From Candidatus Altarchaeum sp. (GTDB lineage Archaea; Altiarchaeota; Altiarchaeia; Altiarchaeales; Altiarchaeaceae), in the NCBI GenBank assembly GCA_018260755.1, contig JAGTWP010000003.1, positions 1 through 11,780 on the forward strand: a stretch of DNA of 11,780 bases, given 5' to 3'. Under the pieces are notes generated by a model, which searched no databases, had not been told where the DNA came from, and was given only the letters and a program-made list of their open reading frames with translations. Below, in pieces: positions 1,676 to 11,484 of the stretch. Both the position numbers and the translations under genes were made by a program. Every line of letters starts with the position of its first letter. Position 1 is the stretch's first letter.

Positions 1676-4600
1676 TCACTTTATATTTGTCATCCTCCTG
1701 ACAAGTGTCGGGTCAACGATTTTTCTTGGCTTCCAGTTTTTGGATTTCAGGAATTCCTTTACTTCATCAGCCATTGCCATTGGAATGTCCCTTTCCATTC
1801 TTATAAATTTATCCAAATCATCGGGAAAAGCATCCTTTCCCTTTCCGGAATATTTCCTGTAAATGCCAATATAATGCGATAATTTAATATTTCTGCCCTT
1901 TGTAGCATCGCTCGGACGCATCGTTAGTTTTGGAATCAGCATCATAATCTCCTCTTTTGTCTTTGCCGCATAACTTAAATGTAAAGGTGCCGGTTCGCTG
2001 TCTATAACATCTCCGGTTACCGTATTATAAATTTTCCATCTGTCAAGCAGTCCTAAATTTTTCCGTGCATAGTTAAAAATTTCGCTGTTTTTTTCATAAG
2101 GGTTTTCAACATCTCCTCTCAATTCTTTCCTGTATTTTGTTCCCTGTGGCCCCCATATTACAGGAATTCCAAGTCGGATTGCCCCGTTTCCGATTGCGAC
2201 CGCTTTTTGGGACATCGTTCCCAAGACCAATCCAACCGCTCCGACTCTGTTAAGAGTATAATCGGCGATCTCCTCAAAATTCGCCCGTAAATTTCTCTTG
2301 GCGAATATATTTGCTATCTTCATAGCCGCTCCTGTTATGTGCGCATTTGCCACGCATGAACCGACATTAACTATATTTCCCGCTGCAAAATTTCCTCCGT
2401 ATTTTTCATATAAATGACAGGTTCCAGAATAATCACTTGCTACTGCCATTGCTGCGCAACCGCTTACTGCAACTATGTAATTTCTCTTTAAAAATTCTTC
2501 TAAAATTTCTCCTAATTCTTTACCTCCGTTAGGCCATATCGAACATCCGACAGCTGCAATTACTCCCGGAATTTCGCCAAAAACAATCGGTTGTCCTACA
2601 TTTCTTATTTCAACATCCTGTATTGCTCCCCTTCCAGGAGAAATTTTTGCTTTGTCATTTGCCAGCCGGTCTTTATAAATTTCGGTAAATACTGATACAA
2701 TCGGAATTTGTTTCGGACACCACGATTCACACCTTCCACAGAATATACATTTTCCGATGGATTCCAAAATTTCATCTTTTGTTAAAAATTTGAGCTCATC
2801 CTTTATATTATTTCTTTCTCTTTCAACCCTTACAACCTCTTTGATGTTTATTTTTTTCGGACACTTTTCCTGACATAATCCGCACATTGCACAATCTTTT
2901 AGGATGGAAATTTCATTTGCACCAATTTCTTTTCCTTCTTTAATTGCTATTATCAAATCAGCAATCTGAATATTATTCGGACAATTTCGGGTACAATTTC
3001 CGCATTCAACACAGCTCTTTGTCTGTTCGGTTATTTTGTAATATTCATTCAGTCCTTTAATTAAAGAGTAATATGTCTCCTTTCCGACTGCTCTTTTGCT
3101 TAATTCATTCTCTTTCTCTTTTGAAATTTTTTCCAGCACATGATAAATGTACTGCCTTGAACAGCTGATTTCTTTTGCTAAAGAGGTTATGCCGTATTCC
3201 TTCTGCTGCAATAAATTTATTATTTTGTTTTTGAGTTTGCCTGCATCTTCATAAATATTCAGTTTTCCATTTTCTTCTCTTACAATAAATTCAAATTTTT
3301 CATTTTTGATTTCTACTATTATGTTGTCCCTGATTTTAAGGGTGAGCAAATCGGAATTTGTGTTTTGAGCAATAACTCTTACAACATTATCCTCCTTGCT
3401 AATTGCTATATCTTTCGCTTCTATCCTCCATCTTTTTAGAAATTTTATAAAATCAACGTTGTTTTCTGAAACATCCTCCCAGCAAAATAAAAATTGAGAT
3501 TTACTTTCTACCCTATTTTCCTCAGCTTTTTCATTTATTTCACCTTCTTTTTCTACCCTATTTTCCTCAGCTTTTTCATTTATTTCACCTTCTTTTTCTA
3601 CCCTATTTTCCTCAGCTTTTTCATTTATTTCACCTTCTTTTTCATTGAAAATTTGGTTTATGCTCCTGATAATTAAGCGGTTATCAACACCAACGGGACA
3701 TGCCTTTATACATAATCCACAGTTAATACAATCGCTTGTTTTTTTTATTGTCCCTTCGTATAAATTTAAATTTAAATTTTGTGTTTTTCCATTATTATGG
3801 TTTTCAGTCCTTTTTCTTTCCTTAATCATTACAGCAACCTTTACCGCAACCTCTCCCAATTTTTCAAGGGTATGCAAATAACATCCTGGAATTTCTCCGC
3901 TCATTAATTTTTCAATAATTACCTCGCTATTTTCATCGCTTAAATCCTCTAATCCGGAAACATATTTATCAGTAGTAGCAATTAAAGGCGTTTTTAATTT
4001 CTTTAAGTTTTCCAGTATATCAACTCTTATACATTGCTCATCACTGATAACAACATCTGCAATTCCAGACCTTATATAAGGAAGCTGATAGGATAATGGT
4101 CCAATAATTTTTGCCCCTGTTCGGTATCTTCCTAAATCAAGTGCGGTGCAGCATATTCCACAAATTTCAACATCTTTATTATTTGCTTCCGCATAATCAA
4201 TCGCAGAGGCACCTGCAAGCACATTATGTCCGATGCATAGAATTACCGGCTTTTCTTTATTGACACTTCCAAAACCAAATTCGACTAATTTCGGATTTGG
4301 CTCTCCTTTGGGAAAATTTAATGCAGCGATTTGTGAGATATCACAAATTTCCATTCCGACATGGTCAAGCATTCCCGCATGCAATGCCTTACTGTTATAA
4401 TCAAAATCAGATGATTCGGTTCCGACATTAAGACAAGAAGCAAGTTTTGTGAGTTGTCCTTCAATATAATTTAGTCCTCTTTCAAGGTCACCGATTGTTT
4501 CCGGCTTATATCCGCATACAAGCTGAATATTCGGTGATTTTACTTCTGTATTTTCAGCGGTGTCCAAAGGAAAATTTCTTCCTTTTCTTTCTATTAATGC

Positions 4601-4924
4601 CTCTATTAAGTGCCTTCCGTGTGCAGAATGTGCAGATGCTCCGATTATTGCTAATTGCAGTCCTTCTCTTGCCAGATGTCTTTCCAATGTTATACCGCAT
4701 GCTCCTTTCCTGTTATCCGATAAATCGCAGGGACCCAAAGCACAAAACTGACACTGCTGAATAAATCCGTAATATTTTGGTTTGTATCTGTTCAGCAATT
4801 TCAAATCCCAGTCCCGCAAATCGGCAATATCAGGATTTGGTGTCGGCCCTTCTAATTCTTTATACTCTCTTTCATCTTCAATCTCTCCGATTGAAATTTT
4901 TAAATTTTTGCTTTTGGTTGCCAT
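1676..4924 (-). CDS. cdhA: ACDS alpha subunit, Ni-Fe-S CO dehydrogenase (CdhA), active-type copy with extra Fe-S and HTH insertion
   Basis: Catalyses reversible CO2 reduction to CO for acetyl-CoA synthesis in the ACDS complex. At 1082 aa it is about 280 longer than methanogen CdhA. The B-cluster-type motif is Cys58/61/66/76 and the proton-relay motif HSAHGRH has His99/102/105. C-cluster candidates are His233 (IGHN), Cys258/259 (CGICCTA), Cys298 (DEQC), Cys794, Cys823 (SGC) and Cys857 (GSC), with catalytic Lys907 in MSQKA. All match methanogen CdhA as I recall it. Four CxxCxxCxxxCP motifs start at Cys399, 638, 678 and 726; methanogen CdhA has two. Between the first and second lie three EKEGEINEKAEENRV repeats (428-472), an unassigned segment (474-560) and a helix-turn-helix/winged-helix-like domain (562-622). 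The gene starts 15 bp after cdhA2, so the two are cotranscribed. The stop is TGA, followed four codons on by an in-frame TAA. There is no Shine-Dalgarno. Confidence 0.95.
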   Translation of the reverse strand: MATKSKNLKISIGEIEDEREYKELEGPTPNPDIADLRDWDLKLLNRYKPKYYGFIQQCQFCALGPCDLSDNRKGACGITLERHLAREGLQLAIIGASAHSAHGRHLIEALIERKGRNFPLDTAENTEVKSPNIQLVCGYKPETIGDLERGLNYIEGQLTKLASCLNVGTESSDFDYNSKALHAGMLDHVGMEICDISQIAALNFPKGEPNPKLVEFGFGSVNKEKPVILCIGHNVLAGASAIDYAEANNKDVEICGICCTALDLGRYRTGAKIIGPLSYQLPYIRSGIADVVISDEQCIRVDILENLKKLKTPLIATTDKYVSGLEDLSDENSEVIIEKLMSGEIPGCYLHTLEKLGEVAVKVAVMIKERKRTENHNNGKTQNLNLNLYEGTIKKTSDCINCGLCIKACPVGVDNRLIIRSINQIFNEKEGEINEKAEENRVEKEGEINEKAEENRVEKEGEINEKAEENRVESKSQFLFCWEDVSENNVDFIKFLKRWRIEAKDIAISKEDNVVRVIAQNTNSDLLTLKIRDNIIVEIKNEKFEFIVREENGKLNIYEDAGKLKNKIINLLQQKEYGITSLAKEISCSRQYIYHVLEKISKEKENELSKRAVGKETYYSLIKGLNEYYKITEQTKSCVECGNCTRNCPNNIQIADLIIAIKEGKEIGANEISILKDCAMCGLCQEKCPKKINIKEVVRVERERNNIKDELKFLTKDEILESIGKCIFCGRCESWCPKQIPIVSVFTEIYKDRLANDKAKISPGRGAIQDVEIRNVGQPIVFGEIPGVIAAVGCSIWPNGGKELGEILEEFLKRNYIVAVSGCAAMAVASDYSGTCHLYEKYGGNFAAGNIVNVGSCVANAHITGAAMKIANIFAKRNLRANFEEIADYTLNRVGAVGLVLGTMSQKAVAIGNGAIRLGIPVIWGPQGTKYRKELRGDVENPYEKNSEIFNYARKNLGLLDRWKIYNTVTGDVIDSEPAPLHLSYAAKTKEEIMMLIPKLTMRPSDATKGRNIKLSHYIGIYRKYSGKGKDAFPDDLDKFIRMERDIPMAMADEVKEFLKSKNWKPRKIVDPTLVRRMTNIK
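3509..3643 (-). repeat. 45-bp in-frame tandem repeat, three perfect copies, inside cdhA1
   Basis: Three head-to-tail copies identical at the DNA level encode EKEGEINEKAEENRV three times (residues 428-472 of CdhA1). They sit just after the first ferredoxin-type motif. The neighbouring paralogue lacks the array. Nucleotide identity between copies points to recent expansion. The product would be a charged, probably helical or flexible linker. Confidence 0.95.
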
Positions 4925-4939
4925 TTTATCTTAAATTTT

Positions 4940-7669
4940 TTATTTTTGTATGCTGTTTTTATACGCCTCCGGAATATCTTTTTCACTCCTCACAAAATTT
5001 TTTATATCATCGGGAATTTCTTTTGTTTTATCACCTCCATATTTCCTGTAAATTTCAATATAATCCGCTATCTTTTTTGCTCTTACTTCTTCGCTGTCAA
5101 AATTTCTGAAAACCAATTTCGTAATTAATAACATCGCTTCCTCTTTTGTCTTTGCTGCAATACATAAATGCGGGAATGAGAAATTTTTCGGTGAAATTTT
5201 CTTAAGGACTTCATTATAATTTCCGTTATAATCATCTTTACTATAATCAATAACTATGTCTCTTGTAAGTTCCCTTCTGTATTTTATACCCTGCCGCCCG
5301 AATATTACAGGAATTCCCAACCGCATCAATCCCTGTGCAACTGCAAAATTTTCCTGTGTCGTTGCCCCCCAGAATAAAGCAGTAATACCAATTTTATTTG
5401 TAATATAGTCAGAAATTTCATCAAAATTTCCAACAGGACTTTTGTCGATGTTTTTACCTGTCATTTCTATTACCTTCTCAATTAAATGAATGCCAGCAGA
5501 TAACGAACCCAGATTTATTAAATTTTTATATGTTGAATTGCTCTCTGCAATTTCTGACTTGGAAATACACGAACGAAGTGAGCATATTGAAATCGCCGCA
5601 TCTCCGGCTGTAAATATAATAAAATTTCTGTTTAAAAATTCCTCCAAAATTTCTGCTAATTCCTGTGTCCCGTTCGGAAAATTTGCATCACCTAAAACCA
5701 AAAGAACCTGTGTATCTTTGGGAATAGATATATTTGCATGAGAAAAAGTAATTGATGCCTTTTTATCCATAAATTTTTCTTTATATATTTCGGCAAATAC
5801 AGATATAATGGGAATTTGTTTCGGACATTGTGATTCGCATCTTCCGCAGAATATACATTTTTCAAGCGCTCCCAAAATTTCCTCTTTTGTTAAAAATTTA
5901 ATATCCTCAATTATATTTCTTCTTTCTCTTTCACCCCTGACAACTTCCTTGATATTTATCTTTTTAGGACATTTCTCCTGACATAATCCGCACATTACAC
6001 ATTTCTTTAAGATAGAGATTTCTTTTGCTTTTATTTCTTTTCCTTCTTTTATTGCTATTATCAAATCAGAAATCTGAATATTATTCGGACAGTTTTCGCT
6101 GCAAAGTTTGCATCCGATACATTCCTTTATCTGCCCGGTTATTTTGTAATATTCATTCAGTCCTTTAATTAAAGAGTAATATGTATCCTTTCCGACAACC
6201 CTTTTAGTTATTTCCGGGCATGCCTCTGAAATCTCCGAATGAAGTGAGGTGAATTCCGAACCTTTTTTCTTTGAAAATTTTTTCAAAACATTATAAATGT
6301 ACTGCCTTGAACACCCTGTTTCTTTTGCTAAATTTGTTGCTGTATATTCCTTTTGTTTCAATAAATTTATGATCTTGTCTTTGGTTTTATTTTTACTTTT
6401 AACTGGCGGAGCGAGCATATCCTCACCTGTTTTTGTTTCACAACTCTCTGTCTTATTATTGAAAATCCTGTTTATGCTTTGAATGATTAAACGAGGAGCA
6501 ATATTAACAGGACACGCCTTTTTGCATAATCCACAGTTAATACATTCGCCTGTTGTTTTTATTAATCCGGCATCTGTGGTATCTGTATTAAAATTTTTTA
6601 AATTTCTCCCTTTCTTATTCGCAGTTGCAATCATTCCAACAACATCTGCCAGTTTTTTGCTGTCTTTTATATAACACCCTGAAATTTCTCCATCCATTAA
6701 CTTTTTAAAAATTTCATCTGAACTTAAAATGCTCAAATCCGCAAGACCTGCCATATTCCTGTCTGAAACGGCAATTACAGGAGTACCTGATTTCTTTACA
6801 TTTTCAATTACATCTGTCCGGACATTTCCTGTTCCAATCACAATAACATCCGCAAGCCCGGTTTTTTCATATATCAGTTCCGAGGCGGAATTTTCACAGA
6901 TCTTTACACCCTCATTAAAATCAAAAGCACCCGAACCGAGATGTATGATTTCAAAATCTGCACTTGAATTAATGATTTGAGCAATATTGGGAACATAATC
7001 TCCAATAATTAAAACAATCCCTTTGCTTTTATCAATCGCACCAAATCCAATCTCAAATTTGTTTATTTTATTGCCTTCATTGTTATTTGAAAATTTCCTT
7101 AAAATTTCATAAATTTCCATTGCGAGAAGGGACAGCATTCCCGCATGAAAAATTTTGCTGTTGAAGTCAAAATCACTTGCTTCCTGTCCCATGTGTGTTG
7201 CCGAAATCAAATGAACTATTTGCTCATTTGCATATCTTAATGCCTTCTTTAAATCACCTGTTGTTTTCGGTTCATATCCGCACAAAAGATTTATAAAAGT
7301 TGTGGTTATAAAATTTTTGTCTTCTAAAAGTAATTCTGCGAAATAAGTGTGTTCCTTGATTATTGCATCATTTAGTTCGCATGCTCTCGCAATATAAGAT
7401 GAAGCACCTGCAATTGCAGTAACCAATGCTTCTCTTGCCATCTGTGGATTTAATCGCATTCCGCACGCGCCTCTTCTGTTTTTTGACAAATCACACGGAC
7501 CAAAAGCACAGTATTGACACTGCTGAATGAATGCATAATACTTTGGTTTAAATCTGCCGAGTAAATTTGCATCCGAGTTTCTTAAGTCCGTTACATCCGG
7601 ATTTATAAATTTTCCAGTTCTTTCCAAGTAATCTCCACCTTTAATTAAAATTTCCGGTTTTTCTTTCAT
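4940..7669 (-). CDS. CdhA paralogue lacking C-cluster ligands (probable CODH pseudoenzyme), with extra Fe-S and HTH insertion
   Basis: A 909-aa homologue of the neighbouring CdhA1 along its whole length, sharing motifs such as FIQQCQYCAFGPCDLS and RLGIPVIFGRQGIKYRREL. The N-terminal cluster cysteines (51/54/59/69) and all four CxxCxxCxxxCP motifs (starting Cys376, 517, 557, 605) are intact. By hand alignment to CdhA1, the active-site residues are replaced: relay His99/102/105 to Tyr92/Arg95/Glu98, His233 to Asp224, Cys258/259 to Gly245/Ser246, Cys298 to Asn282, Cys794 to Asp661, Cys823 to Asp690, Cys857 to Leu723 and Lys907 to Glu773. It should not bind the Ni-Fe-S C-cluster or oxidise CO. 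The frame is fully open, so this is not a decaying gene. An electron-conducting or structural role beside CdhA1 is inferred. The helix-turn-helix-like insert is at about 430-500. The C-terminus is slightly shorter than in CdhA1. It lies 10 bp after the 91-aa gene and 15 bp before cdhA1. Confidence 0.9.
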   Translation of the reverse strand: MKEKPEILIKGGDYLERTGKFINPDVTDLRNSDANLLGRFKPKYYAFIQQCQYCAFGPCDLSKNRRGACGMRLNPQMAREALVTAIAGASSYIARACELNDAIIKEHTYFAELLLEDKNFITTTFINLLCGYEPKTTGDLKKALRYANEQIVHLISATHMGQEASDFDFNSKIFHAGMLSLLAMEIYEILRKFSNNNEGNKINKFEIGFGAIDKSKGIVLIIGDYVPNIAQIINSSADFEIIHLGSGAFDFNEGVKICENSASELIYEKTGLADVIVIGTGNVRTDVIENVKKSGTPVIAVSDRNMAGLADLSILSSDEIFKKLMDGEISGCYIKDSKKLADVVGMIATANKKGRNLKNFNTDTTDAGLIKTTGECINCGLCKKACPVNIAPRLIIQSINRIFNNKTESCETKTGEDMLAPPVKSKNKTKDKIINLLKQKEYTATNLAKETGCSRQYIYNVLKKFSKKKGSEFTSLHSEISEACPEITKRVVGKDTYYSLIKGLNEYYKITGQIKECIGCKLCSENCPNNIQISDLIIAIKEGKEIKAKEISILKKCVMCGLCQEKCPKKINIKEVVRGERERRNIIEDIKFLTKEEILGALEKCIFCGRCESQCPKQIPIISVFAEIYKEKFMDKKASITFSHANISIPKDTQVLLVLGDANFPNGTQELAEILEEFLNRNFIIFTAGDAAISICSLRSCISKSEIAESNSTYKNLINLGSLSAGIHLIEKVIEMTGKNIDKSPVGNFDEISDYITNKIGITALFWGATTQENFAVAQGLMRLGIPVIFGRQGIKYRRELTRDIVIDYSKDDYNGNYNEVLKKISPKNFSFPHLCIAAKTKEEAMLLITKLVFRNFDSEEVRAKKIADYIEIYRKYGGDKTKEIPDDIKNFVRSEKDIPEAYKNSIQK

Positions 7670-7679
7670 TTTTTAAATT

Positions 7680-7955
7680 TTAAGTTAAAATTTTGGCTCT
7701 TTCTATTCCATCCTTATTTTCAAGGTATTTAAGTGCGTGTTCCCAGGATGCCGATGCCATCCGGATGTATGAGGATGAGGAAAGGTATAACATATTTCCA
7801 ACGGATAAAAATAAGTCCTTTTTTTGATATTCTGTCGGAACAATTATTTTTTCTATTACCCTGATAAATTTATCCGTATTTTCTTTATGCTTCTCTGCTA
7901 ATTCCAAAATGTCTTTTTTCATTTTTTCAGATACGGGTGATGTGTTTTCGTTCAT
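7680..7955 (-). CDS. 91-aa hypothetical protein, first gene of the cdhA2-cdhA1 group
   Basis: I do not recognise this protein. It is 91 residues, hydrophilic and mostly helical in appearance (KKDILELAEKHKENTDKF, then a less charged stretch around LSVGNMLYLSSSSYIRMASA). It has no cysteines, so it cannot bind an Fe-S cluster by itself, and no signal peptide or clear transmembrane segment. It sits where methanogen clusters often place other ACDS subunits, but it is too short and unlike CdhB (epsilon, about 170 aa). Its stop is 10 bp before the cdhA2 start, so it is almost certainly cotranscribed with the two CdhA genes. It follows a gap with a duplicated TATA-like element. No Shine-Dalgarno precedes the ATG. 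A small accessory or assembly factor for the CdhA pair is possible but unproven. Confidence 0.75.
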   Translation of the reverse strand: MNENTSPVSEKMKKDILELAEKHKENTDKFIRVIEKIIVPTEYQKKDLFLSVGNMLYLSSSSYIRMASASWEHALKYLENKDGIERAKILT

Positions 7956-8183: not shown

Positions 8184-9581
8184 TTACTTTGTCTTTACAT
8201 CCAGCCCTCCTCCAGTCCAGTTTTTCCTCAAAAAATCACCTATTCCTCCTGAGTCCTGAGGCCCAACCAAAACCTCCCATTTTGTTTCATCCTCTATTGC
8301 ACCTTTTATTCTTCCGACATATCCAGGAATAACTAATTTTCTGTGCTTCACAAGTTTTTCAACCTGGTTTGCATCCATTGCTTCTTTTATTTTGCTTGCA
8401 TTCAATTTTCCCCCAGCAAGTGAAACCAGAACAGCTAATCCTTCGGTATCTATGACAAGCAGATAACATGAGACCTTTCCGCTTTCAATATCTCCTGCAA
8501 CTCCAAAATATGTAAGGGCAAAATTTGATGTTATTAACAATGGAGAATTCTCATCAGGTGTTCCAATGGGATATACTTTTGGTTCTGTTGTCGGATTTAC
8601 TTTCGGATCAGCATAAATATTCATCCTCAATGTAAGTGTCTCCATAACATTGTAAATTTCACTAAAATGAGATAATACGAGCAAACTTACAAATCTGTCC
8701 AAACATAAAGAAACAGATAATGCCTCGGAAACAGCAGCCAGCTCGCCTAAATTTAAATTTTTCATTCCGACAGTTGAAACCATTATAGGAAAAGAAAATT
8801 CCTTAATATTCTTTATTGCCGCAATTCTTAAAATTTCAAATTTATTAAGAGTAGAAGATAAATTTTCAAAATCAAATCCCGGGTCAATAACAATATCTGT
8901 CCATCTGGCATTCATTAATGTCTTTGTCATTGAGCCGATTTCATCTAAATTTTCCGAGTGAATCGCCAATGGACAATTGTATTTTTTTGCCAATTCAAAC
9001 ATCTCTTTTAAATTTTCAGGAATTGCCGTGTAAATTAAAGGTCTTCTTTCTTTTGCTATTTCAAGTCCTGCCTTCATTATTTCTGGATTTGTCGTGCAAA
9101 GGATTATTGGCTTATCAATGTTTTCAACTGCAAATTTCACTATATTTGAAAATTTTTCTTTATCATTGGATGCACACCTTACACTTACCCCGTCTAATTT
9201 TAAAAATTTTCCAATTCTCTCGTATTGATATTTTTTCACAAATTCAATCCTTAATTTTATTTCTTCTTCGCTCATTGTATCGCTGAGGTCAAGGAGCATC
9301 CCAGTAGGATTAAAAAATCTAAGGTCATGCCTGTATATTACTTCTTCTCCGCCAACGGTAATTGCATGTTCCGGATTTCCGATTACAACATCTCGGACAG
9401 GCGGTGTGATAACCTCCTTTAAATTTTTTAATTTTTCTCCTTTTAATTCCGCACAATCTTCTGGTTTTACTCCTCTTTCCATTAATTTCATGGCAAATGC
9501 CATACATGTCTTTTCAGGGCATTTTCCGCAATTTGTCTTCGGGAGTAATTTGTAAAGTTGTAACGCACTTAATCTTGCCAT
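8184..9581 (-). CDS. cdhE: ACDS gamma subunit, corrinoid iron-sulfur protein large subunit (CdhE)
   Basis: Large subunit of the corrinoid Fe-S protein. It takes the methyl group from a tetrahydropterin-bound carrier and passes it to acetyl-CoA synthase. At 465 aa it is full length for the family. The N-terminal 4Fe-4S motif is Cys18, Cys21, Cys26 and Cys43 (CxxCxxxxC plus a distal Cys), followed by PEDCAELKGEKL. About 80-325 is the TIM-barrel domain. About 335-460 is the corrinoid-binding domain, with the family signature SNFALTYFGVAGDIESG and a Gly-rich QDSGGIGDFLRKNW near the end. The gene follows cdhD by 128 bp; that gap contains a duplicate of the cdhD 3' end. No Shine-Dalgarno is seen before the ATG, but starting here gives the canonical N-terminus (LSALQLYKLLPKTNCGKCP). 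Confidence 0.97.
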   Translation of the reverse strand: MARLSALQLYKLLPKTNCGKCPEKTCMAFAMKLMERGVKPEDCAELKGEKLKNLKEVITPPVRDVVIGNPEHAITVGGEEVIYRHDLRFFNPTGMLLDLSDTMSEEEIKLRIEFVKKYQYERIGKFLKLDGVSVRCASNDKEKFSNIVKFAVENIDKPIILCTTNPEIMKAGLEIAKERRPLIYTAIPENLKEMFELAKKYNCPLAIHSENLDEIGSMTKTLMNARWTDIVIDPGFDFENLSSTLNKFEILRIAAIKNIKEFSFPIMVSTVGMKNLNLGELAAVSEALSVSLCLDRFVSLLVLSHFSEIYNVMETLTLRMNIYADPKVNPTTEPKVYPIGTPDENSPLLITSNFALTYFGVAGDIESGKVSCYLLVIDTEGLAVLVSLAGGKLNASKIKEAMDANQVEKLVKHRKLVIPGYVGRIKGAIEDETKWEVLVGPQDSGGIGDFLRKNWTGGGLDVKTK

Positions 9582-9650: not shown

Positions 9651-9750
9651 AAAGTAATTTTATGATGTAATCCATGAAAGATAATCTTTTTCTTTTTTTT
9701 AAAGTAATTTTATGATGTAATCCATGAAAGATAATCTTTTTCTTTTTTTT
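9651..9750 (-). repeat. 50-bp perfect tandem duplication spanning the cdhD 3' end
   Basis: 9651-9700 and 9701-9750 are identical 50-bp units. The upstream copy (in the direction of transcription) encodes the last residues of CdhD, ending in KDYLSWITS and TAA at 9710-9712. The second copy lies wholly in the 3' untranslated region before cdhE and repeats the same tail coding sequence plus stop. Because the stop falls in the first copy, the protein is unchanged. Each unit contains an AAAGAT-T-ATCTTT inverted repeat. Confidence 0.95.
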
Positions 9751-11119
9751 CTTCTTTTAATTCATAAAGAGAATCAATAATTTTGTTTAACAATTCAATA
9801 CCGAGCACATCTAACGAATAAAATATATTCGCTCCGCACAACAATGCCATAGCTCCCGTTGCGGCTTCATATAAAGGTCCTCTTATTTCTCTTGGTCCCC
9901 ATTCGGGATTTTTCTTCCATGCCTCTTTCGCTGCCCACATATTTGAAGTTGCAGATATTATCGGAACTGCAAGAGAGTCCTCTCCGTTTAGACCCGCGAG
10001 ACGGCATCTTTCTAATGAAGAAATTGAATACTCTATTCCGTAACCAACCCCTGCTGTAAATGGATCCATTGCCAACTGATTTTTTGGCAGTCCAGCTTTC
10101 AATATTCCGCTGTTTAGGCGCCTCATATCATCCGGATTCATTGAAACAAGTGTTCCGAGATTCTGGTTGTGTTTGACACATGCCTTAACGACATCTTCAT
10201 ATTCCATATCACCGGAAATTGTTGAAAACAGTAACCTTTCCCCTGCAAACATCTCTGCCGCTTCTTTAAATATTAAAGGGTCTTTTACAGGATTTCCGGA
10301 ACCGCCAACAACAATCGGAACTTTAACCGACTGCAATATATGGGCAATTGTTTTCATCGCATCCTGAACACTTGCGTCTTTAACATTCGGATCTGTGCTG
10401 ATTAAATGAATAGTCACTACCTTTGCATGACTTTTTTCAACTCTGAATTTTGCCCATTCTCCGGGATCTGCCATTATCTCTTTATCCGTTTTATCACCTA
10501 TTTTAAAACGCTCTCTTACAACTTTTGGAACTCCTCCAGGTATGTCAAATACATCGTTGGAAATAACCGACTTATTAACAGGAGGATTTTCAAAGAAATA
10601 AAAAGGCATAGTCTTCTCTCCGCCGATTTTTACGACACTATCTCTGCTTCCTCCTTCTGTCTTCGTTGCTCCTAATGTCACTTCTGCTATTTCTGTCTTG
10701 CGATTATCAGCTATCTTTGCGGCATCAAATTTAAATTCAAGTAGTTTTTCAATTACTCCTGCGGATTCCGCGGTTTGCATAGACATTCCGCCGCCAAGTC
10801 CCGCTGTTATAATCTGCTGAACAAATGAAGGTACTGTTATCTCAAGTTCCTCCCCGCTTGTTTCAAAATTATCAATTGTTATTGCTCCTCCTCCTTTCAT
10901 TAATTTTTCAAGTATGGCTTTCTCATTGCTTCCGGAGTTTTCAAGCAGCATCTTTTTAGCACTAAGCGAGGGAAATAAAATTTCTACATTGTCCGCAAAT
11001 AATCTGAAATTTTTAAATTTTATCTTTGCATTGCTTTTCAGTATCTTTTCAAGGATATTTTTGTTTTCCTCCAATCCCAACAGAGTAATCTCTATTTCGG
11101 TATCTTTTTTTTCAGCCAT
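9710..11119 (-). CDS. cdhD: ACDS delta subunit, corrinoid iron-sulfur protein small subunit (CdhD), with a two-module beta N-terminal extension
   Basis: Small subunit of the corrinoid Fe-S protein, partner of CdhE in methyl transfer. At 469 aa it is slightly longer than typical archaeal CdhD. Residues about 145-445 form the TIM barrel, with family landmarks VTLGATKTEGGSRDS, DPGEWAKFRVEK, IHLISTDPNVKDAS, VGGSGNPVKDP, MDPFTAGVGYGIEYS and EWGPREIRGPLYEA. The C-terminus DYLSWITS resembles the methanogen ending. Residues about 31-106 hold two beta modules (IKFKNFRLFADNVEILFP and AITIDNFETSGEELEITVP) separated by a helical linker. The same pair makes up the separate 114-aa protein just upstream. 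The gap to that gene is 20 bp. A GAGG about 12 nt before the ATG is the only Shine-Dalgarno-like sequence near a start in this window, and its spacing is long. Confidence 0.97.
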   Translation of the reverse strand: MAEKKDTEIEITLLGLEENKNILEKILKSNAKIKFKNFRLFADNVEILFPSLSAKKMLLENSGSNEKAILEKLMKGGGAITIDNFETSGEELEITVPSFVQQIITAGLGGGMSMQTAESAGVIEKLLEFKFDAAKIADNRKTEIAEVTLGATKTEGGSRDSVVKIGGEKTMPFYFFENPPVNKSVISNDVFDIPGGVPKVVRERFKIGDKTDKEIMADPGEWAKFRVEKSHAKVVTIHLISTDPNVKDASVQDAMKTIAHILQSVKVPIVVGGSGNPVKDPLIFKEAAEMFAGERLLFSTISGDMEYEDVVKACVKHNQNLGTLVSMNPDDMRRLNSGILKAGLPKNQLAMDPFTAGVGYGIEYSISSLERCRLAGLNGEDSLAVPIISATSNMWAAKEAWKKNPEWGPREIRGPLYEAATGAMALLCGANIFYSLDVLGIELLNKIIDSLYELKEEKKEKDYLSWITS

Positions 11120-11139: not shown

Positions 11140-11484
11140 TTATTTTTCTTTTCTTCCTATTGATAAAATTTCCTGAACGAGCATTGGAATATTAATTGTA
11201 ATCTTGCCTTCTTCTACACGGACATTTTTCAATTCAATCTCCTCTCCGCCTTTAAAAATTTGTGCGGATGTGTCTGTTGCATTTTCATCTGTTTTTTCAG
11301 TAATATTCTTTTCAGCAATTTCAACGGGAAATTTAAGATGTATTTTTTCCGCATTAATCTTAAAATTTTTACATTTAATGCTGCAATCCACCTTTAAATT
11401 TTTCCTAATTCCCTGAGGTGTTTCTTCAATACTGCTTTTAATACATTCAATTTCTTCATCGGACTTTTTCTTTTCATTACTCAT
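11140..11484 (-). CDS. stand-alone paralogue of the CdhD N-terminal beta domain
   Basis: A 114-aa protein with no enzyme domain. Residues 36-52 (IKCKNFKINAEKIHLKF) and 79-110 (GGEEIELKNVRVEEGKIT, then INIPMLVQEILSIG) align with CdhD residues 33-49 and 76-107. Shared positions include IKxKNF, A, I and FP in the first module, and GG, I, N, I, P, VQ, I and G in the second. The first about 30 residues are charged with no match in CdhD. The gene ends 20 bp before cdhD and is surely cotranscribed. It probably arose by duplication of the CdhD N-terminus, or represents a subunit whose domain was later fused to CdhD. Because the domain lies outside the corrinoid barrel, a docking or assembly role in the ACDS complex is inferred. 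Cys14, Cys34 and Cys38 do not form a recognised cluster motif. Confidence 0.85.
   Translation of the reverse strand: MSNEKKKSDEEIECIKSSIEETPQGIRKNLKVDCSIKCKNFKINAEKIHLKFPVEIAEKNITEKTDENATDTSAQIFKGGEEIELKNVRVEEGKITINIPMLVQEILSIGRKEK

Follow-up and report, generated by a model that had tools for sequence, protein, structure and literature searches.

The locus analyzed here raises the question of why an ACDS operon should keep, directly upstream of an active-type alpha subunit gene, a second copy whose product has lost the active site. The window, a stretch of 11,780 nucleotides from a 43-kb contig (C27) in the 1.3-Mb genome bin of Candidatus Altarchaeum sp., carries on its minus strand, in this order, the genes for the ACDS delta subunit (cdhD, 9710-11119) and the corrinoid/Fe-S protein gamma subunit (cdhE, 8184-9581), a 91-aa ORF (7680-7955), cdhA2 (4940-7669) and cdhA1 (1676-4924), with a gap of 15 bases between cdhA2 and cdhA1. 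The 1082-aa CdhA1 is an active-type ACDS alpha subunit with all C-cluster ligands, the catalytic Lys, four ferredoxin motifs and an HTH-like insert, and cdhA2 is an intact ORF of 909 aa that homology and ligand alignment identify as a C-cluster-less paralogue of ACDS alpha/Ni-CODH. CdhA1 scores 925 bits against the TIGR00314 (cdhA) model, over its equivalog cut-off of 781 bits, and CdhA2 matches the same model with 479 bits (E 2e-143), below that cut-off. Furthermore, CdhA2 matches the solved ACDS alpha subunits 8riu (E 1e-88) and 3cf4 (E 4e-87), the former over both halves of the protein (residues 19-389 and 601-905).

The gene for CdhC lies on a different contig of this genome, and the epsilon subunit, CdhB, is absent from all 29 genomes of the class searched. 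We rejected CdhA2 as a specific substitute for epsilon because that absence includes class members without CdhA2. Two smaller frames flank the identified genes. The slot between cdhE and cdhA2 belongs to a TPR-type gene: the 91-aa ORF is a shortened homologue of a 156-aa TPR protein occupying the same slot in a relative (G003, L042:15766-16236, minus strand), and another relative has a TIR-TPR protein there (G002, L041:4365-5246, plus strand). Upstream of cdhD, a 114-aa ORF (11140-11484, minus strand) shows no significant family and by eye looks like the N-terminal region of CdhD.

We aligned CdhA2 and its orthologues with 18 active-type CdhA proteins, Altiarchaeum CdhA1 among them, and report positions in CdhA1 numbering. 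None of the six C-cluster ligands (one His, five Cys) is present in any of the four CdhA2 orthologues. His233 of CdhA1 is replaced by D224 (6989-7009, minus strand, as for all sites that follow; Asp or Glu across the four orthologues), Cys258/259 by Gly/Ser at residues 245-246 (6923-6940; Gly, Ser, Pro, Asn or Thr across orthologues), and Cys857 by L723 (5492-5509; Leu or Ala), whereas the replacements of Cys298 by N282 (6818-6835), Cys794 by D661 (5678-5695) and Cys823 by D690 (5591-5608) are invariant in the orthologues. The catalytic Lys907 has become E773 (5345-5362; Glu in the orthologues except for Gly in G003), and the tunnel histidines His99, His102 and His105 have become Y92, R95 and E98 in the segment ASSYIARACE (7376-7405; Tyr or Phe, Arg, and Glu across orthologues). 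This ligand loss goes far beyond chance, since the same losses recur in all four orthologues. An earlier note, made from the letters of this DNA, had proposed that the relay histidines, the C-cluster His and Cys ligands and the catalytic Lys are replaced in CdhA2, and the alignment agrees. Its further point, that acidic residues were introduced at positions 224, 661, 690 and 773, is correct for all four in the protein of the window and for the first three across the genus, but fails for the last in G003. We also looked in CdhA2 for the alternative Cys/His ligands at the C-cluster that the note had raised as a counter-argument, and found no set able to stand in for the six. The conserved Cys and His residues of CdhA2 without a CdhA1 counterpart are C97, H107, H153, H159 and C836; H153 and H159 are found in other archaea too, and C130 and C332 are common to CdhA2 and CdhA1.

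Orthologues of CdhA2 occur in all four genomes of the Altiarchaeum genus (G000, the genome of the window, to G003), the three other carriers being Candidatus Altiarchaeales archaeon A3, Altarchaeum sp. HURL_140 and Altarchaeum sp. CG2_30_32_3053, so that the sample comprises four species represented by draft genomes 65-87% complete. At the sensitivity of our search, none was detected outside the genus among 394 archaeal genomes, in which the next-best matches were ordinary CdhA proteins. In the tree inferred from the protein cores, the stem leading to CdhA2 measures 1.2-1.5 substitutions per site, and CdhA2 stands beside Altiarchaeum CdhA1 with 84-85% support under LG+G4, and near CdhA1 but in an unresolved position under a mixture model. 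The frames are open in all four orthologues, whose cores are about 70-85% identical to one another and are not gene-converted, and omega over the cores is 0.20-0.30 for CdhA2 compared to 0.09-0.14 for CdhA1. CdhA2 is thus under purifying selection and is not a decaying pseudogene. Simple relaxation, in the form of faster change at the old pocket, was not detected in CdhA2, where 67% of near-ligand columns are invariant compared to 65% elsewhere. These results bear out the proposal that selection has kept the protein while discarding catalysis: the dN/dS check suggested with it returned values of purifying selection, and decay by stops or frameshifts was not seen in the orthologues of the relatives. 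The best explanation is that cdhA was duplicated in or near the Altiarchaeum lineage, and that CdhA2, after a burst of change that removed its C-cluster entirely, was retained.

The earlier note also placed the intact frame in the same operon as the active-type copy and suggested looking for adjacent pairs in relatives. The pair lies inside the cdh operon in G000 and is adjacent in G002 as well, but several kilobases of unrelated genes lie between cdhA2 and cdhA1 in G001 and G003. The intervening stretches (L040:3532-8300 in G001 and L042:5270-12700 in G003) encode an SMC-like ATPase, toxin-antitoxin-like ORFs and a large surface-type protein, and the 195-aa TPR gene immediately before cdhA1 in these genomes begins MATK(N/S)KNL, as CdhA1 itself does. 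About 1.1 kb downstream of cdhA2, G003 also has a broken duplicate of the CdhA2 C-terminus, ~66 residues long and containing a stop (C111:22576-22773, minus strand).

Published groups of Ni-CODH provide a frame for these losses. The survey by Inoue et al. 2019 (PMC6344411) describes group A-5 of clade A as having four Cys motifs, two of them extra and lying between the E and F clusters, no D-cluster Cys and a complete active site, a description that CdhA1 of the window fits, its HTH-like insert aside. CdhA2 resembles this group in its fold as judged by sequence, its B-cluster, the missing D-cluster Cys and, in G000, G001 and G003 but not in G002, its four motifs; it differs in lacking the six C-cluster ligands and the acid-base Lys/His, and both paralogues differ from the group in carrying the HTH-like insert. 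Groups A-4 and A-6 are bacterial; their active sites are incomplete, but Cys2-Cys5 of the C-cluster are still there (PMC6344411, Table 2). Like CdhA2, they are CdhA-type proteins whose genes sit in ACS gene clusters and whose His/Cys1 and acid-base residues are altered; in contrast, Cys2-Cys5 of CdhA2 are N, D, D and L/A, and CdhA2 is archaeal and a paralogue of an active copy in the same genome. CdhA2 fits none of groups A-4, A-5 and A-6. A further parallel is ChCODH-V of clade D, reported to lack CO activity (as cited in PMC13056359): going by its residues, CdhA2 is likewise an apparently non-catalytic CODH-fold protein beside an active CODH in the same organism, but clade D is a different clade and its groups retain nearly all C-cluster ligands in Table 2 of PMC6344411.

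A second degenerate CdhA paralogue is also found in the cdh cluster of G037 and G059, probably Methanopyrus (L045:6694-8628 and L046:6726-8624, both plus strand). Unlike CdhA2, that protein has lost the B-cluster and the ferredoxin domain and kept most C-cluster ligands, and it is not an orthologue. Catalytic-subunit homologues that lack a used cofactor and take wiring or structural roles by an active site are known in NuoG/NuoD of complex I and DsrA of sulfite reductase, with which CdhA2 may share a common evolutionary logic only, the folds being unrelated. In the open literature searched, with subscription journals outside the search, we found no reported C-cluster-less CODH alpha paralogue or partner subunit; where published groups of Ni-CODH have an incomplete active site, Cys2-Cys5 are retained, and no group is described as lacking all of the ligands. 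CdhA2 sequences may nevertheless be sitting unremarked in earlier data sets.

The B-cluster cysteines of CdhA2, C51, C54, C59 and C69 (motif C51-xx-C54-x4-C59-x9-C69, 7463-7519, minus strand), are invariant in all four orthologues, and the B-cluster is kept in every CdhA1. The D-cluster cysteines are missing from CdhA1, CdhA2 and all five class relatives aligned, as they are from Ni-CODH groups A-2 to A-6 in PMC6344411. Domain retention was counted over 133 CdhA columns that are invariant archaea-wide, of which CdhA2 keeps 26/38 in the N-terminal helical domain, 10/30 in the middle Rossmann part and 21/56 in the C-terminal part, so that the N-terminal domain is retained preferentially over the two Rossmann parts (31/86; Fisher p 0.0016). 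Differences fixed specifically in CdhA2 affect 136 of 587 core columns and are scattered over the whole protein. A single-chain structure prediction from a 6-sequence alignment gave a pLDDT of 41 and a pTM of 0.26, too low for a usable model.

The CxxCxxCxxxCP motifs of CdhA2 begin at residues 376, 517, 557 and 605. Motif 1 (376-387; 6509-6544, minus strand) is kept in all four orthologues, and motifs 2-4 (517-528, 557-568 and 605-616; 5822-6121, minus strand) are deleted in G002. Between motifs 1 and 2, Altiarchaeum CdhA proteins carry an HTH-like insert (about residues 426-511 of CdhA2, 6137-6394; 3029-3226 within the ferredoxin domain of CdhA1; both minus strand) that is not found in the CdhA of other class members. 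The class relatives with a long CdhA (G012, G022, G023 and G026) have four ferredoxin motifs; in G012 the cdhA frame (L043:6782-10084, plus strand) continues upstream, over a run of masked bases, into an ArgS-like N-terminus, probably a masking artefact.

The cores of CdhA1 and CdhA2 are ~40% identical, whereas the module formed by the HTH-like insert and motifs 2-4 reaches 71-79% (72-79% within a genome). Consistent with this, dS between the paralogues is 0.64-0.85 in the module compared to 1.3-2.3 in the core, and a fraction of 0.21-0.26 of the codons for identical residues differs in the module, compared to 0.40-0.48 in the core (p 9e-7, 0.012 and 1e-5 in three genomes). Because its synonymous divergence is lower than that of the cores, the module has been swapped between the paralogues by gene conversion after the cores diverged, and because it is homogenized with CdhA1, the retention of the motifs in CdhA2 is renewed rather than passive. 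The one exception is G002, in which the 642-aa CdhA2 has motif 1 only: the HTH-like insert and motifs 2-3 are missing from both paralogues, and motif 4 is missing from CdhA2 as well. An assembly error is unlikely, since the junctions carry unique in-frame sequence. Since one orthologue has lost most of the module, CdhA2 cannot in general serve purely for "electron wiring". The claim that all four motifs and the N-terminal cluster cysteines had been retained is therefore accurate for the protein of the window and, as regards the B-cluster, for the whole genus; it does not extend to motifs 2-4 of G002, and what it took for retention is, in the module, the product of gene conversion.

Taken together, the loss of the active site and the kept iron-sulfur wiring suggest that CdhA2 is a non-catalytic partner subunit. 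Of the roles raised in the earlier note, a heteromeric CODH still accounts best for the data. Our tentative interpretation, to which we give a little less than an even chance, is that the Altiarchaeum ACDS includes CdhA2 as a pseudoenzyme subunit, which most likely dimerizes with CdhA1 and gives it a B-cluster relay and a scaffold. CdhA2 would pair with the catalytic CdhA1 via the conserved N-terminal helical domain. As a general feature of Ni-CODH structures, electrons pass from the C-cluster of one subunit to the B-cluster of the other (the C-B' path), and the B-cluster of CdhA2 would therefore serve the active site of CdhA1 by taking its electrons. In three of the four species CdhA2 would add a ferredoxin arm of its own, and the resulting complex would have one catalytic and one non-catalytic half. 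The electron chain of ChCODH2 is given as clusters C, B' and D, in which B' belongs to the partner subunit, and both notation and distances fit a cross-subunit path (PMC10979024); in archaeal ACDS, the outer cluster of the ferredoxin domain is the exit to ferredoxin (PMC11493965). Homogenization of the module would suit a pair of arms that deal with one and the same electron carrier. We infer this path of the electrons, like the heterodimer itself and any advantage for ACS docking or for the choice of electron carrier. A fuller version, which strikes us as rather doubtful, is a heteromeric CODH with one catalytically dead alpha subunit dedicated to wiring and scaffolding; gene conversion would keep its electron module matched to that of its active partner, and the old C-cluster pocket might have become a metal or effector site lined by carboxylates.

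In favor of the partnership we count the presence of orthologues throughout the genus, purifying selection, retention of the N-terminal domain and B-cluster, homogenization of the module, the loss of the HTH-like insert and motifs 2-3 shared by both paralogues of G002, and operon adjacency in G000. Against it, an obligate heterodimer would idle the B-cluster of CdhA1, yet all CdhA1 proteins keep it, and the reduced ferredoxin arm of the G002 protein and the separation of the genes in G001 and G003 also count. In the sources cited, the Ni-CODHs whose structures are described are symmetric dimers with two active sites, and an asymmetric CODH, if true, would make the C-B' path and the role of each half directly testable. 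Furthermore, Altiarchaeum is described as an abundant deep-subsurface primary producer that uses this CO2-fixing pathway (PMC8324899, PMC8755723), which gives an altered core carbon-fixation enzyme there ecological weight. The pair is, in addition, an example of an Fe-S module that passes from one paralogue to another without the catalytic core.

The same conserved B-cluster and N-terminal domain, and the spread of CdhA2-specific differences across the protein, would also be expected of a CdhA2 homodimer that serves ACDS, without pairing with CdhA1, as a platform for docking or a hub for electrons, holding CdhC, CdhD/E or a ferredoxin-type donor. The class-wide absence of CdhB may leave an accessory role open for it, though that absence predates CdhA2. 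We consider this unlikely: epsilon-less relatives in the class get by on a single CdhA, and homogenization of the module would arise more naturally from a shared partner or a shared complex. It is more improbable still that CdhA2 is a redox sensor or regulator outside the enzyme complex, with the HTH-like insert suggesting contact with DNA or RNA. CODH-fold proteins without CO activity, such as those of clade D, have been proposed as sensors (PMC13056359), and the HTH-like segment scores near the Pfam HTH thresholds (HTH_11, 22.5 bits with a cut-off of 25) but stays under the curated cut-offs. Moreover, the same insert is present in the catalytic CdhA1 and missing from both G002 paralogues, and is therefore no mark of a function specific to CdhA2.

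By analogy with NifEN, which serves nitrogenase as an assembly scaffold, CdhA2 might instead be an assembly factor or a Ni/cluster scaffold for CdhA1, being a paralogue in the same operon without cofactor ligands whose three conserved acidic replacements (D/E224, D661 and D690) could bind a metal ion in the old pocket. With all six ligands gone, however, CdhA2 would have no cysteines with which to hold a precursor cluster, and all four genomes of the genus encode a CooC-like ATPase, as do relatives without CdhA2, which leaves such a role slightly less probable than that of a sensor. Finally, slow decay as a pseudogene partly preserved by gene conversion from CdhA1, to which an omega about twice that of CdhA1, the large deletion in G002 and the broken C-terminal fragment in G003 might point, is very improbable and already largely refuted by frames that are open in all four genomes at the end of a long shared stem, an omega far below 1, unconverted cores that nonetheless remain alike among orthologues, and a pocket conserved like the rest of the protein.
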